From positions 1 through 63,403 of the IMG/VR virus record IMGVR_UViG_3300037882_001548: a stretch of DNA of 63,403 nucleotides, one strand, 5' to 3'. Origin of the DNA: a virus. Positions 6,308-24,927 of this stretch are shown here, in pieces. Position 1 is the first letter of the stretch; each line of letters begins with the position of its first letter. The notes beneath the pieces are model-generated. The model did no database searches, was not told the DNA's origin, and worked only from the letters and a program-made list of their open reading frames with translations. The translations under genes were made by a program, and so were the position numbers.

Positions 6308-7789
6308 ATGTTAAAACGTTCACAATTAATTGTTAAAAAATACGAAGGTTTCGGTGGTAATTTCATTGATTCACAATATATGGGTCAATCATATGAAATG
6401 GGTAAGCCTCACATGATTCAAAGACCTTTACAAATGGTATTCACAGCAAAGAACGATATCTTTGAAAGAAAACCGTTAATGGCTATGATGGCTAAAATGG
6501 GTGGTACAAAAGAAATTGATACTGAAATTTATGGTTGGAATTTACAAGGTGCTGATACTAAATTTGCACGTATTGTAGAAGTATTAGACCCTACAAACTT
6601 AACACCAGGTTTAAATAATACAACATTTAGAATTAAATTAGACGTTGATTTTTACGCATCTCCTGAGGTTTTATTGGGTGCAACTCCTGATTATCCATTG
6701 ATGATTATTGATGGTCCAGTACAAGATGGTGTAGGTTATGTTTACACAGTACGTATTCAATCAGATAATCCAGCATTATCATATCCAGTACAATACTTAC
6801 AAGTAGGTGCTGAAATCTCTAAAGGTTGGACAACTGTATCATCAGAATATAACTTCGAGCGCGGTGGTTCTCAGTATCCAGGTGCATTTAAGTTACAATC
6901 TCAAATATCTGCATTTGGTCAAGAATATACTGTTACAGATAAAGCTATGCGTGAGCAAGGTCGCTTAGGTATTGATTTCCAATATGAAGACATTAATGGC
7001 AAGAAAACATCAATATCTCGTTTTATGCCGATGGTTGAAGCAAAATTGTACGATGAGTTATATAAATCAATTGAAGCTCAATTAACTTATGGTACTAAAT
7101 CAACTATTGCTGAAACAGCTAATAAATATGTTAAACGCACAGGTCCAGGTTTACGTCAACAATTATCTGACGGATGGATTGAGTATTATAGCGGTGCTTT
7201 AACAACTAAAAGATTCCAAGATTACTTAATGTCTATTCATCACACACGTACAAACGAAGGTGATAGAGATACAATAGGTATGACAGGTACATTAGGTGGA
7301 TTTTTATTTCATCAAATGTTACAAGGTGAAGCACGTTCATTCTTTACATTAGATACAAACTATGTTCAGAAAATTGCTAATTCATCAGGCTCATCTACAC
7401 AAGCGTTAAGCTTTGGTGCTGAATTTAAAGAGTATCATGGACCACAAGGTATCACAGTAAAATTAACTAAGAATTCTAATTATGATTCCCGTAATTTCTG
7501 TCGTATTGCGCATCCAACCAATCCTATGTTCCCAATAGATTCTATGCGTATTACATTCATGGACTTCGGTAAAACAGAAGGTGAATCAAATATTCAAATG
7601 CTTAAAATAAAAGATTTCTACAAAGACGCTATTGTTTTAGGTATGCATGGACCAAATGGTCCAATCAAAGGTGGTCAACCAGTTTCATTAGCTATTTCAG
7701 GTTATTCTAAGCATGTTGATGATAGCGCAGGTATTGTTGTTTATGACGCATCTCGTTGTGGTGAATTAATCTTCGATACTGAATATTAA
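6308..7789 (+). CDS. Major capsid protein
   Basis: 493 residues, the usual length of crAss-like major capsid proteins, which have an HK97 fold and form the icosahedral shell. The protein is mixed alpha/beta with no membrane segment or Cys cluster, and contains long Gly-rich strands typical of shell proteins. It lies after the scaffold-like gene and is bounded by hairpins on both sides (6264-6279 and 7831-7877), as expected for a strongly expressed unit. All three Trp codons are TGG and none is TGA, in contrast to the neighbouring portal. The start has an A-rich leader and no Shine-Dalgarno. Confidence 0.85.
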   Translation: MLKRSQLIVKKYEGFGGNFIDSQYMGQSYEMGKPHMIQRPLQMVFTAKNDIFERKPLMAMMAKMGGTKEIDTEIYGWNLQGADTKFARIVEVLDPTNLTPGLNNTTFRIKLDVDFYASPEVLLGATPDYPLMIIDGPVQDGVGYVYTVRIQSDNPALSYPVQYLQVGAEISKGWTTVSSEYNFERGGSQYPGAFKLQSQISAFGQEYTVTDKAMREQGRLGIDFQYEDINGKKTSISRFMPMVEAKLYDELYKSIEAQLTYGTKSTIAETANKYVKRTGPGLRQQLSDGWIEYYSGALTTKRFQDYLMSIHHTRTNEGDRDTIGMTGTLGGFLFHQMLQGEARSFFTLDTNYVQKIANSSGSSTQALSFGAEFKEYHGPQGITVKLTKNSNYDSRNFCRIAHPTNPMFPIDSMRITFMDFGKTEGESNIQMLKIKDFYKDAIVLGMHGPNGPIKGGQPVSLAISGYSKHVDDSAGIVVYDASRCGELIFDTEY

Positions 7790-7830
7790 TCAATAAAAAG
7801 AACAAACAAAATAATATAAAAAACCAAATA

Positions 7831-7877
7831 CCTCATAATTCGTGTACATCTAAAAAATGTACACGAATTCACTGAGG
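7831..7877 (+). terminator. Terminator-like hairpin after the capsid gene
   Basis: A perfect 13-bp stem AATTCGTGTACAT / ATGTACACGAATT with a 7-base loop is extended by CCTCA / TGAGG outside. It ends a few bases before a short TTTAAAAAA run. It is placed to insulate the capsid message. Confidence 0.6.
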
Positions 7878-7915
7878 GACTTTAAAAAATATGAAAAGTA
7901 AAAAAATATTTAACA

Positions 7916-8893
7916 ATGGACAAACTAAACAATAAAGTAATAGTGTATACCATACCGTCAAAACAAAGTGCCGTAGGTTTACATAATTTAGTATCTGACA
8001 ATGGTCGTCTTTTAAATAAGACTAAGTTTGGATTAGCGTGTGATGCTTTCAGTATATTATCTTCATCAAGTGTAGGTGGATTAAAAACAGGATTATATAA
8101 ACCGTGGTTTGAAAACGGAGAACCTGTTAAAGATGATAAAGGATATCAATTAACACTTCAAGACAAATACGAAAAACAATTTAATTTAGAAAAAGGTTAT
8201 TTAACAAATAAACCACAACAATCAGGTAATTTTGATGATAAAGCGACATTTATTCAAAACTTTAAAATGGTATTCAATGATGGCGCTACGGTGTTTGATT
8301 TAAACACATTAGATGGTGTTGTAGGATATCATGCAATGTTAGAAAGTAAATATATTGCTAATTCTGAAAAAGAATGGCGAGACCACAAATGACCACAAGC
8401 AAAGTATTATATTGCTCTTGAAAACGAAGAAGCTGAAATAAAATCTCAAAAGTATGCGATTAAATCAAAAGCTTTTGCTAATTTACATGACAGCGCCATG
8501 ACAGATAGTGCCAAACATAAACTGTGTGCTATCTTAGGTAAAGCACCTTCTAATACAGTTGTTAGTACAGATGTTATCAATAATACATTACATGAATTAA
8601 TAGATAAGTCATCTACTACACAAGATTCTGATATTAGTAAAATTACGGAACTATTTAATCTATTAAAAGACGCTAAGGGTAAATTTGAATTTGAAGCACG
8701 TTTTTTATTAAAGCAAGCACTTGATGCTCGCTGTGTATTTGAAAAACAAGGTAGTTATACATGGATAAGAAATACAGGACCAATTATTATTGGTGACACT
8801 TATACAGAAGCTGTGCAATTTTTCTTAGATCCTAAAAAAGATACATTAGTCAAAGATTTGACTAATGAAATAAAAGCAAAAACATATAATTAA
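7916..8893 (+). CDS. Structural protein of unknown role downstream of major capsid
   Basis: 325 residues with TGA at 8390 read as Trp (next to Lys, in a helical stretch). It begins with a short beta-type region and continues as a mostly helical, charged protein. No known domain or motif was recognised. Its place between capsid and connector-type genes suggests a virion or head-assembly protein. It starts at ATG 7916 right after the hairpin; an upstream ATG at 7891 is in another frame and closes after 14 codons. Confidence 0.6.
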
Positions 8894-19015: not shown

Positions 19016-19324
19016 ATGAATGATTTAACTTTCAAAACACTATTCTTAGGCTTTCTGGGGGCACTTGGTACAATTGTAGCTGCTTATATAGGTAAGTTAT
19101 TATTAACGCCTAACGAACGAATAAAACAGCTTAATGAGATTATAATACAGCATACTGAACTGATTCATGATTTAACAAATCAAGTGAGAGAAGTCATTAC
19201 TGAAAATTCTATTTTAAAGAAAAGAATTTCTGAATTAGAAGATGAGTGTAGATTGCTGAGAGATGAAAACAATATATTAAAGCTTAAAATAAATTCTAAT
19301 TATGATAATAACAAAGACAAATAA
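19016..19324 (+). CDS. Small membrane protein with coiled coil
   Basis: 102 residues. Residues ~8-30 are a hydrophobic segment, probably a transmembrane helix. The rest is a heptad-rich, charged coiled coil with Leu and Ile spacing. This layout occurs in inner-membrane spanins and some holin partners, but I see no decisive motif. It ends by overlapping the next gene by 23 bases. Confidence 0.55.
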   Translation: MNDLTFKTLFLGFLGALGTIVAAYIGKLLLTPNERIKQLNEIIIQHTELIHDLTNQVREVITENSILKKRISELEDECRLLRDENNILKLKINSNYDNNKDK

Positions 19325-20546: not shown

Positions 20547-21557
20547 ATGCTCACTTATTTCATATTAACATTGATAATTCTGGTAATATTGACATTACTT
20601 TTTTATTTCATTATATTGAACCCTGTTCCTACTATTGCAACTAAGCATCCAGAAAGCGACACAATAAACAAACAAAATAACAAATTCATTGATACGGTAA
20701 GTAATACAGAAGCTAATGTAATACGTCAAAATATGAAAACAGGTAAGCAAACTAAATACTGCTTAGCTTTCGGTTTGAATAAAATAAACCCTGATGTATA
20801 TAATGGAAGTAATGGATTATTATATGGTGCTGTAAATGATGCTAAACATATAACTGATTACTTAAAGAAAGAAAAAGAATTTGATGTCGTTAAGTTATTT
20901 ACAAATGAAGAAGCTTCAATACAGTCTTTTATAAATGCTTGAAAGTCAATTACAAATAACTTAAAAAAAGATGACGTGTTTGTATTATATATGTCCAGAC
21001 ATGGCATCATGCTTCCAAATAATACAATGGATGATGATAAAGAAAAATCAGGTAAAGATCAAGCAGCCGTAATGTATGATGGTTGTATATTAGATGATTG
21101 TATCGGTAGATTAATTCAATCTTTACCAGAAATTACATTTATATACATCAATGATTCTTGTCATTCTGAAACACAATATAAACTATTACCTGATTTAATT
21201 GATGGTAAATTAACAATCAGTAAATCATTAAGTAAAGATTATGTACCGAGTAAAAATAATATACTTGATATAGTTCAATTAGAATCTTTGTTTACAAAAC
21301 AAGATTATAAACAAAGATGTACTGTTATATCACTTGCATCATCTTTAGATACACAACCATCACTGGATGTTCAATTGAATGGTGTAGCACAAGGATTATT
21401 TACTGGCACATTACTTAAAATACTTAGAGACAATCCTACTATAAGAGTTAAAGATATTCAAGCTCAACTCAGAAAACAAATAGGTTATCAACAAACACCT
21501 GTTGTTCAAATAGAAGGCTTAAATACTAAAAAAGTAAGTTCTTTAAAGCTATTTTAA
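20547..21557 (+). CDS. Membrane-anchored caspase-like cysteine protease (peptidase C14 / metacaspase type)
   Basis: 336 residues, with TGA at 20940 read as Trp. Residues 3-28 form one strong transmembrane helix. From ~70 the protein follows the caspase/metacaspase p20 order: a strand with FGLN, an L-x-x-A-V-N-D-A helix, then a strand ending in SRHG (His152, candidate catalytic His; SGHG is usual) and a second strand ending in NDSCHS (Cys205, candidate nucleophile; DCCHSG is usual). The small-subunit region with an LASS strand follows. Caspase-like enzymes cut after Arg, Lys or Asp. It sits in the lysis region, two genes before the endolysin. Possible roles are controlling lysis, processing virion proteins, or acting on host defence; none is shown. 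The fold call is fairly strong, the activity is inferred. Confidence 0.8.
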
Positions 21558-21610: not shown

Positions 21611-22081
21611 ATGGGAAAATTACTATTAAGTGTATTACCACTTAAAACAATATTAAACTTTATCTTTAATACAGAACAATTTCAAAATGCCATCATATAT
21701 TTATTTATGAAACCTTTTGAAAAAGTAAAAGATAAAAATCCAGCTTTATATAAAGCGTTAAATGATTATGTTATAGCATTCGCTAAAATACCATCTATTC
21801 AAACAGACGATAATCCAGACAACGTTTCACAATATATTGATTTATTTAAATTATCACAAGTAGAATCATTAAATAAAAATTTACAAGATTCTAACTCTAT
21901 GTTAACAAAAGCGATGAATGCGACGGTAGAAACTAAAAAAGGATTAATGTTAGACTTAGGTATGATTACACCAGCTAAACAAGAAACATCAACTGCTGTC
22001 AATATTGAAAGCTTAAAAAAATATAGTGCGCCAATTAAATCAGTTACACCATTAACAGGTGGTTCTAAACGTAAAAAATAA
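21611..22081 (+). CDS. Small protein of unknown function between caspase-like protease and endolysin
   Basis: 156 residues. The N-terminal ~35 residues are hydrophobic with two short amphipathic or membrane-leaning stretches; the centre is helical and the C-terminus ends in a basic Gly-Gly-Ser-Lys-Arg-Lys tail. The stop overlaps the endolysin start (TAATG at 22079-22083), so the two are translated together. Position suggests a holin or lysis regulator, but the hydrophobic part is weak for a holin. It could also be a minor virion protein. Confidence 0.5.
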   Translation: MGKLLLSVLPLKTILNFIFNTEQFQNAIIYLFMKPFEKVKDKNPALYKALNDYVIAFAKIPSIQTDDNPDNVSQYIDLFKLSQVESLNKNLQDSNSMLTKAMNATVETKKGLMLDLGMITPAKQETSTAVNIESLKKYSAPIKSVTPLTGGSKRKK

Positions 22082-22713
22082 TGGATATTAATTACACAAA
22101 AAAAGTAATATCATCAGCCAAAGCATTATGTCGATTAAAACCTAAATCATTAGACAAGCAATTTAAAGCTGACGAATTTCATACCAAAGGATTAGAGGAT
22201 ATTTTTGCAACAGCATTATCTTATGTAGGTCAACAAGAAATACCAGGTAATCAAGGATTTAAGAATCCTAAGTTTGAAGACGAAATGACAAATGTAGGTT
22301 GGTTAAAAGGAGAAGCATGGTGTGCTACATTTGCTAAGTTGGTATTTAAAAAAGCTTATGCTGATAAACCTACAACACAATTAGAACTTGAAAGATTGTT
22401 TTCTAAATCAGCTACTCAAACATATTCTAATTTTGATAAGTCAGATTGGAAAACACAAAATCCAGATGGCACACCTATTAAAAAACCAGTTAAAGGTGCG
22501 TTAGCTGTATGGCGACACGGAGATTCTTGGGCAGGTCATATCGGTATTGTTATTGAAGTTAATTTAAAACAAGGTTATTTTAAAACAATAGAGGGTAATA
22601 CAAATGCGTTTGGTTCAAGAGAAGGTATTCAAGTGGCTGTTAAAGAACGAAAGATGTCACAGCCTTATTCAGATAAAGGATTAAATTTAATTGGTTTTGT
22701 TTATCCTAAATAA
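22081..22713 (+). CDS. Endolysin: CHAP/NlpC-type peptidoglycan amidase
   Basis: 210 residues. Candidate catalytic residues are Cys81 in WCATFAKLVF, His153 in GHIGIV and a polar partner in EGNTN (171-175), the order and spacing of CHAP/NlpC-P60 cysteine amidases that cut peptide stems or bridges of peptidoglycan. The ~45-residue N-terminus is basic, and I see no signal peptide or binding repeat. Translation is coupled to the gene before it. A terminator follows. Such a protein could alternatively be a virion-borne wall hydrolase used on entry. Confidence 0.75.
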   Translation: MDINYTKKVISSAKALCRLKPKSLDKQFKADEFHTKGLEDIFATALSYVGQQEIPGNQGFKNPKFEDEMTNVGWLKGEAWCATFAKLVFKKAYADKPTTQLELERLFSKSATQTYSNFDKSDWKTQNPDGTPIKKPVKGALAVWRHGDSWAGHIGIVIEVNLKQGYFKTIEGNTNAFGSREGIQVAVKERKMSQPYSDKGLNLIGFVYPK

Positions 22714-22839: not shown

Positions 22840-23526
22840 ATGACTAATCTTAGAAAACATACGGATGCACTTAAAATAATCATAGGTCGGTCCAGACCAT
22901 CAGATGATTTTCCTTATTCATCATCTTTTTTATCACATCTTATATACAGTATAGGTAGTAAAGTAATGAAAGATAAAATGGATAAAGAAGGTATGTTATC
23001 AGAATTTAATTATACTTCTTTTTGTATAGACTTAATTGATTCAACATTTGCACAGTGTGCGTGTGTAGAACAAAAAGGATGTACAGTTAAGCGTAGTTCT
23101 ATTAAATTACCCAATGTATTATCACCACAATCATCAAGTGTTAAAGTGTTAAATTTTAATGGCGAGACAATAGATTCCATTAATCCTGATTTATATAAAT
23201 ATTCTAAATACAGTGAAGATAAATATACAGGTTGATTAATACATGATGATTATTTATTTATCATTGGTGATACTGATATAGAACATGTTATATTTAAAGC
23301 TATCATAACTGACTTAACAGCTCTTGAATCACTCAATACATGTAATAATGAGGGTAATAATAAAGGTATCTGTATGATGCTTGAAAACGGCTTTAAAATA
23401 GACGATGATTTAATTGAAGAAGTATACAAAAGAGTTTTACGCTTATTGGGTTATAATTTCAATACTAATTTTGCGAAAGATACCAAATCAGATAATTATG
23501 ATAACACGACCCATTCCAATATATAA
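22840..23526 (+). CDS. Probable tail ring/adaptor protein
   Basis: 228 residues with TGA at 23233 read as Trp. It is a compact mixed protein with no catalytic motif. It is the first of three similar-sized genes directly before the muzzle-type gene, matching the ring-protein genes of crAss-like phages that build the barrel between portal and tail tip. It overlaps the following gene by 29 bases. Confidence 0.55.
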
Positions 23527-24118
23527 ACCAATTTATAAAAGTTTAAAACATCGTTTTTTTAAAACATTACCTTTTAGATTTGACTTTCATAATTCTAATA
23601 CATGAAGTATGATATGAAGTTACAGTGATATTTGAACATTATACGCATTGGATAAAATGTACACTAAGCAAGAAATTAAATTTGATAAAAAAGAATTTGA
23701 TGGATTTACATCATACTTTCACAATTATATATTAGCCAAATCAGTTGAAACAGGAAGAGTTTATCAAATGCCTTATGATGCAGGTTACATAGCTACACTA
23801 ACTTACGCATCAGTAGATACAAAGAACTTTAATTTCTTAGATTTAATGGATACTGAAAAAGCGACAGAGTATAAAAAATTACTAATGCTTTCTAATAGAG
23901 TACCTCGTATAAGTTATTTAAGAGTTAAAAATATAGCTAAAGAATACAATTTAGATAAATCAGATTATTTTAGTATGGATTATCTTAAAACAGAGAACAT
24001 GAAAACATTTAGAAGAACTGTAGACATAGATAATTTCAATGTATTTCAAACATACTTACAAAAAAAACATTTACCTAAACTGGTGTATGTACCTAAATCA
24101 ATTAAAACAAAAGCTTAA
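23498..24118 (+). CDS. Probable tail ring/adaptor protein
   Basis: 206 residues from ATG 23498, with TGA at 23603 and nearby (three more within 40 bases) read as Trp. The Trp-rich stretch around residues 36-47 is only seen with the recoded table. The N-terminus is basic and Pro-rich. The start overlaps the upstream gene by 29 bases and the stop overlaps the next start (TAATG at 24116-24120). No domain recognised; role from position. Confidence 0.55.
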
Positions 24119-24927
24119 TGAAAACAAATTATGTACCCATACAGTCAGTGCTTTTAGATTTATCTTTAATGGTTGATTCATCTCAATGAAATGAATATGC
24201 TGTAAAAAATTGAATACTTAAAGCACTACGTAAAACAAACACCAATGCTGTATTAGAACAAGTTCAGTGCATCATGAGTATAGAACAACATAAGGGAGAA
24301 CTACCAAAAGATTACAAATACATCAATCAATTATTCTATATAAACCCTTTTAAAATAGGTTTAACTAAAACAGTAGAAGAACAAATTAAACGTTGCTTAA
24401 ACAGTCAAAAAATACCGTCTACGCTGCTTGCTAATATTAAAAAGAAAAATGCATTAGAACCGATGCGATTAAGTATTAGTAATAGTTTCGGTTATGATAA
24501 TGTAAATTGCTGTGAATATGATTATAAGATAAATACAGATGGTGTATTAGATACAACACTTAAAGATGGTTACGTATTAATTTCTTATTTACGTTATCCT
24601 AAATCTAATGTAGGTGATGTATTAATTCCAGACAATGAAGATTTAAAAGAAGCACTGTATCATTACTGTATGTATAAACTATTGGAATCTAAAATAGGTT
24701 TAATTGGCAGCACAGATTATAATAAAATTAGATTTATGCGTGAAGAACGTAATTTTCATTTATCTCAATTTCAAGTATTGAAAACAAAAGCAGCCGGCGA
24801 TTTAAATATGCCTGATGAACAAGAATATGAAAACATTATGCAAAATCAAAATAGATTAATACCTATTCAAAATATGAGTAGTTCAGGTTTTTCAAGATAT
24901 GGTCGACATATTCAAAGTAACATATAA
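24118..24927 (+). CDS. Probable tail ring/adaptor protein
   Basis: 269 residues with two early TGA codons (24187, 24211) read as Trp, in a helix NEYAVKNWILKALRKTNT typical in my memory of crAss-like connector proteins. It continues with a K-D-Y-K-Y-I-N-Q strand and an IPDNEDLKEALYHYCMYKLL helix, again the pattern of these ring proteins. The Ser/Gly-rich C-terminus probably reaches into a neighbour. Translation is coupled to the gene before it. Confidence 0.6.

Follow-up and report, generated by a model that had tools for sequence, protein, structure and literature searches.

Prokaryotic caspase-like proteases have been discussed as tools of the host for cell death and anti-phage defence. To our knowledge, a protease of the caspase kind is not a part of holin, endolysin and spanin modules. 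Amongst described proteins, the one most similar to the protein analysed here is GSU0716 of Geobacter sulfurreducens (3bij), which is encoded by a bacterial gene, starts directly with the catalytic domain and has no membrane anchor. The type II metacaspases of Arabidopsis (MC4 and MC9) share the caspase-like fold and possess a type II linker domain. In AtMC4, the pocket around Lys225 comprises Asp137, Ser84, Asp352 and Ser350 (PMC7206013). Virus-encoded metacaspases have been reported from medusavirus and Heterosigma akashiwo virus 01 (HaV01; PMC6450098), and the klosneuviruses likewise encode C14 proteases; the hosts of these giant viruses are eukaryotes. A literature search of open-access papers retrieved no report of a phage caspase, and the word caspase is absent from a survey of jumbo phages (PMC7824862). 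Similarly, the significant structural matches to our protein in BFVD all derive from viruses of eukaryotes, nearly all of them giant-virus metacaspases, with no bacteriophage protein amongst the matches at E ≤0.001.

The gene described below encodes a protein whose fold and family are known; what is new is that a crAss-like phage carries a copy that is both recoded and membrane-anchored. Its whole catalytic domain superposes on GSU0716 (VIA-align 2: Z 31.0, 246 residues, 2.4 Å), with which it shares the G-L-N-x-(I/V)-(N/D)-P-x-x-Y opening, the His/Cys dyad and the acidic pocket, whereas SGHG and DSCHSG of GSU0716 are replaced by SRHG and DSCHSE. Alignment with Arabidopsis metacaspases 9 and 4 gave Z scores of 24–25, and with caspases and the paracaspase MALT1 of approximately 19. 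As in MC4 and MC9, the residues of a Lys/Arg S1 pocket are present, but the type II linker domain is missing, the acidic Ca-site motif is altered and the protein is phage-encoded and membrane-anchored.

Identity of the phage and reading frame of the gene

The window (the whole stretch of DNA analysed) is a virus record of 63,403 bases and is probably a fragment, since its relatives are 88–98 kb in length. Matches to the capsid family below and to two tail ring protein families (PF24228, 5e-24; PF25702, 4e-17) identify the contig as a Crassvirales phage, a relative of the crAss phages that abound in the gut.

6308..7789, + strand: Crassvirales major capsid protein (PF23898, 8e-70), which identifies the contig

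Amongst named phages, it is closest to those of the genus Fipvunavirus, which infect Flavobacterium psychrophilum, with a capsid identity of about 31%. The original prediction had assumed Bacteroides as the host; this was not borne out, as the nearest cultured relatives infect F. psychrophilum. A muzzle-like homologue of the crAss type was also detected in Leptolyngbya phage Lbo-JY46 (L005), though the stated host of that phage is a cyanobacterium. At 112–2568, the window contains a helicase-like (ResIII/DEAD) frame enclosing a homing-endonuclease domain (Hom_end, LAGLIDADG_3), an arrangement compatible with an intein.

TGA terminates none of the 37 listed genes and makes up 74 of the 149 tryptophan codons on the + strand and 20 of 35 on the − strand. 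A single open frame of 5,586 amino acids, which we take to occupy the position of the giant RNA polymerase protein in crAss phages, contains 18 TGA codons and no other stop. Reading of TGA as tryptophan was previously known amongst crAss-like phages (PMC7886860). Despite the use of this code on both strands, the window yielded neither a tRNA nor a suppressor tRNA.

20547..21557, + strand: caspase-like protease gene, 336 amino acids with TGA read as Trp; ATG at 20547, TAA at 21555–21557
20940..20942, + strand: in-frame TGA at codon 132, decoded as Trp, located 5′ of both catalytic residues

Under the standard code (table 11), this single TGA, on which the original prediction was silent, splits the frame into ORFs 20547–20942 and 20976–21557, whereas reading it as tryptophan gives one ORF of 336 codons. 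Recoding of TAG as glutamine leaves the two halves unjoined, and a pseudogene with a premature stop was ruled out because TGA is a sense codon across the genome. Tryptophan suits codon 132, since the corresponding column is occupied by I, L, M, F or V in 93 of 96 homologues. As the codon lies 5′ of those for His152 and Cys205, the full-length protein depends on the recoded translation of the phage; standard decoding would yield a membrane fragment of 131 amino acids that lacks the active site. The idea that the TGA acts as a safety catch for late expression was unsupported: the two strands use TGA to the same extent, giving no evidence of late-only gating, and the lysin gene nearby has five TGG codons and no TGA. 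A promoter and terminator scan returned nothing above chance level. The codon usage of the caspase gene resembles that of the neighbouring genes (r 0.91) which, together with the in-frame TGA and the flanking tail genes, indicates that the protease is the phage's own, as first suggested from the sequence.

Fold, active site and membrane anchor

The protein matches Pfam Peptidase_C14 (PF00656, clan CD) with an E-value of 3.2e-15 (56.9 bits against a cut-off of 21.4), residues 80–324 aligning with positions 7–227 of the 233 in the profile. A phmmer search retrieved GSU0716 at 2e-12 in addition to plant and yeast metacaspases, and a profile search gave an E-value of 3e-83; no PHROG profile matched the protein. 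An AlphaFold2 model built from the window protein together with 14 viral homologues (15 sequences in all) had a pLDDT of 82.2 and a pTM of 0.76, and a single-sequence model (pLDDT 45) was set aside. Structure prediction had been named beforehand as an outcome that could refute the assignment; the fold obtained is caspase-like, including both the p20 and p10 parts, in model residues 68–336, the full C14 domain being residues 67–336. The metacaspase-type identity originally proposed is thus upheld by the Pfam match and by the superposition on 3bij, and His152, Cys205 and the A-V-N-D-A helix lie exactly where they had been placed. In the model, the catalytic His152 follows the strand at 144–150 and Cys205 follows the strand at 197–202.

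20547..20642, + strand: N-terminal transmembrane helix, residues 1–32; model helix 2–24, pLDDT >90
20643..20744, + strand: low-confidence linker and helix, residues 33–66; model helix 37–65, a spacer between membrane and catalytic domain
20991..21005, + strand: MSRHG strand, with Ser150 (S1 pocket), Arg151, His152 (CAT, 21000–21002) and Gly153
21150..21170, + strand: NDSCHSE, with Asp203 (S1 pocket), Cys205 (TGT, 21159–21161), His206 and Ser207
21321..21557, + strand: p10-like half, residues 259–336; Ser272 and Asp274 match the p10 contribution to the metacaspase S1 pocket

His152, Cys205 and Asp203 are retained in all 96 homologues, in line with the expectation that the dyad would be conserved, although this figure is partly circular because most homologues were fetched by motif patterns. 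The plasmid homologues, which were retrieved by tblastn alone, carry the same motif residues. By alignment with AtMC4, Asp203, Ser150, Asp274 and Ser272 are the counterparts of the acidic S1 pocket, and retention of these residues leads us to predict cleavage after Lys or Arg at P1. The protein is almost certainly a homologue of the C14 proteases whose active site is intact; judging from the dyad and pocket, it probably functions as a cysteine protease with specificity for Lys/Arg.

Several residues close to the active site are unusual. At position 151, the 96 homologues have Gly (90), Ser (4), Cys (1) or Thr (1) and never Arg, so the oddity of an Arg before the catalytic His, remarked upon at the outset, is real. 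Three of the four Ser cases are phage proteins (L063, L065 and L066), which suggests that the constraint on this residue is looser in some phage copies. No homologue in the set has Asn202, and Glu208 stands where Gly is almost invariant. In the acidic Ca-binding cluster (DxDE...D type), Asp162 and Asp171 are kept, N158, S168 and Q172 replace D, D and E, and the motif has a short insertion. The p20–p10 junction spans about 50 residues in this 336-residue protein, which does not correspond to the long linker of type II metacaspases.

The single N-terminal membrane helix that had been predicted is evident in residues 1–32, with a peak hydropathy of 3.19. This anchor is unusual: in the sequence preceding the domain, a hydropathy of 1.65, itself marginal, was attained in just two of some 100 homologue frames.

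Gene neighbourhood and distribution among phages

On the + strand, fibre-like genes are followed by genes starting at 19016, 19302 and 19720, the caspase gene, a 156-codon gene at 21611 and a CHAP gene at 22081, and then by ring protein 2, a gene at 23414, ring protein 1 and a muzzle-like protein.

19016..19324, + strand: 102-residue protein, one membrane helix followed by a coiled coil; spanin-like/holin-like architecture, no family above cut-off
21611..22081, + strand: 156-residue protein between the caspase and CHAP genes, no assigned function
22081..22713, + strand: 210-residue CHAP-domain peptidoglycan hydrolase (endolysin-like)
22840..23526, + strand: crAss tail ring protein 2, marking the phage late region
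24118..24927, + strand: crAss tail ring protein 1

The caspase gene had been described as sitting beside the endolysin gene; the two are indeed close but do not adjoin, as the 156-codon gene separates them. The arrangement resembles the lysis module of Flavobacterium phage Fpv1, in which a membrane protein near the lysin occupies the same slot, between the genes for fibre and ring protein 2, but there the slot contains a Phage_holin_4_1 gene and a gene for a DUF7103 membrane protein, and no caspase. In other relatives, the matching slot encodes small membrane proteins of two or three helices. No PF05105 holin was found in the window, nor any multi-helix membrane protein in the caspase stretch. 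Of the 18 crAss-like records tested, this phage alone has the CHAP gene. Since both the caspase and the CHAP gene are peculiar to it, this suggests that the phage may have acquired a new lysis module. A 'peptidase' in the equivalent place in Fpv1 (ANB40263.1; L003, 8224–9096) is not a homologue: it has no C14 or other Pfam match and its annotation is therefore doubtful.

We found the gene in one crAss-like genome only. Of 46 records from related crAss-like phages with the same ring, muzzle or capsid proteins, none contained a C14 domain, so the search at the same locus showed no conservation in the available relatives, all of which are distant (MCP identity ≤33%). Single-protein queries with the caspase, CHAP, muzzle or capsid protein revealed no close relatives; alignments reached relatives at 33–37% identity or less, and those searched had no C14. 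As a query, the window caspase gave no match at E ≤1 in 50,697 phage records, and two other phage caspases matched one of these, a 485-kb uncultured phage. A motif-guided scan of IMG/VR identified stand-alone caspases, most of them 260–300 amino acids long, on at least 14 contigs, and a phage terminase is present on seven of the 14, including a 476-kb contig and two of near 89 kb. Taken together, these counts show that phage caspases are rare, scattered accessory genes. Homologues are common in bacteria (393 of 590 pattern hits). The phage caspases form at least two groups on the tree, on which the window protein has an end branch of 5.9 changes per column on an open root split; hence neither the protein nor its donor can be placed.

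The neighbours of these phage caspases vary. In an unrelated phage with a terminase (L063), the caspase gene overlaps, or directly adjoins, the 3′ end of a small gene for an NlpC/P60-like lysin (7405–8750; phrog_1259, 1.6e-27, with weak Pfam support), which shows no similarity to the window CHAP protein by BLASTP. In L065, a relative of L063, the caspase is far from the lysin. Elsewhere it lies beside the terminase (L068), near a replicative helicase (L066) or beside a phage endonuclease (L073), and any link between caspases and lysis is accordingly not general. CHAP was rejected as a common partner, since it occurs on one of the 14 contigs and is not adjacent there. On another viral contig (L070, 2920–4551), a match to the RNA-binding protein family phrog_850 (1.5e-83) was observed a few kb from the caspase.

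Possible roles of the phage caspase

Our tentative proposal, which we hold at clearly less than even odds, is that the protein is a late inner-membrane protease that aids host shutdown or lysis. The N-terminal helix would tether the enzyme to the inner membrane of the host, and the catalytic domain would probably face the cytoplasm; the absence of basic residues before the helix and their presence after it point weakly in this direction. Being on the same strand as, and amongst, the structural genes, the protease is probably made with the late gene products. It would cut target proteins after Lys or Arg and, by cleaving membrane or cytosolic proteins of the host, or a lysis protein of the phage, when lysis is due, would help to end the infection. 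The protease may form a module with the single-pass coiled-coil membrane protein (19016) and the CHAP lysin (22081). For this phage we infer the link to lysis from gene position, as the caspase gene matches none of the lysis families (holin-like, spanin-like or lysin domain). The holin slot of Fpv1 and its relatives and the caspase adjoining a lysin in L063 favour a role in lysis, whereas the terminase, helicase and endonuclease neighbours of other phage caspases speak against it. The altered Ca site and the unusual Arg151 and Glu208 also weigh against the proposed role.

A rather unlikely, though credible, alternative is that the protease serves counter-defence, cleaving or mis-activating host defence proteins such as caspase/gasdermin systems, or acting at the membrane to disarm abortive infection. 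PADLOC includes a model for caspases, which implies that the C14 family occurs in defence loci, and this model matched our protein weakly (2.4e-5); moreover, the rarity and scatter of the phage copies are as expected of genes engaged in conflict, and their differing neighbours are compatible with the same interpretation. However, the gene lies in the late structural and lysis region, away from early genes, and neither a gasdermin nor any other defence partner was recognised amongst the scanned neighbours of the caspase, gasdermins being strongly divergent.

It is less probable still that a captured host-type caspase now acts outside lysis, for example in superinfection exclusion at the membrane, or is no longer catalytic. 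The substitutions near the active site (Arg151, Asn202 and Glu208), the changes in the acidic Ca site and the very long branch would all be in keeping with such a passenger, but the intact dyad and S1 pocket and the confident fold model argue for retained catalysis. Maturation of virion or tail proteins, with the protease working from the membrane or carried as cargo, appears improbable: although the gene is situated between those for fibre-like and ring proteins and is co-stranded with structural genes, the lack of C14 in all 46 related records implies that virion assembly in this group can proceed without a caspase, and a membrane anchor would be odd for a virion protease. Contamination with host DNA or a chimeric assembly, to which the absence of the gene from relatives might point, is already largely refuted and very improbable given the in-frame TGA, the phage-like codon usage and base composition, the tight spacing and shared strand with surrounding crAss tail genes and the source in a virus record.

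The crAss-like copy and the further viral contigs indicate that phages too carry caspase-type enzymes. More speculatively, tailed phages from several unrelated lineages might have captured metacaspase-type proteases of the stand-alone kind and turned them on the host cell as executioners or saboteurs, with the crAss-like copy, fixed in the inner membrane, joining or replacing part of the lysis module. We consider this broader idea doubtful; if true, captured phage metacaspases would be the phage counterpart of caspase-driven death. The gene opens the way to a direct test of phage caspase-type proteolysis in lysis, host takeover or counter-defence.

Small stand-alone caspase genes were also observed on cyanobacterial plasmids (L060, 24835–27089; L061, 30499–31197; L062, 25979–26524). 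The first of these is pCYAN10605.01 of Cyanobacterium aponinum, on which the caspase is three genes from a lysozyme-type gene. On a Saprospiraceae contig (L080, 4162–5741), which is possibly a mobile element, a stand-alone caspase of 247 amino acids follows a gene that, judged by its N-terminus, resembles one for a DNA cytosine methyltransferase.
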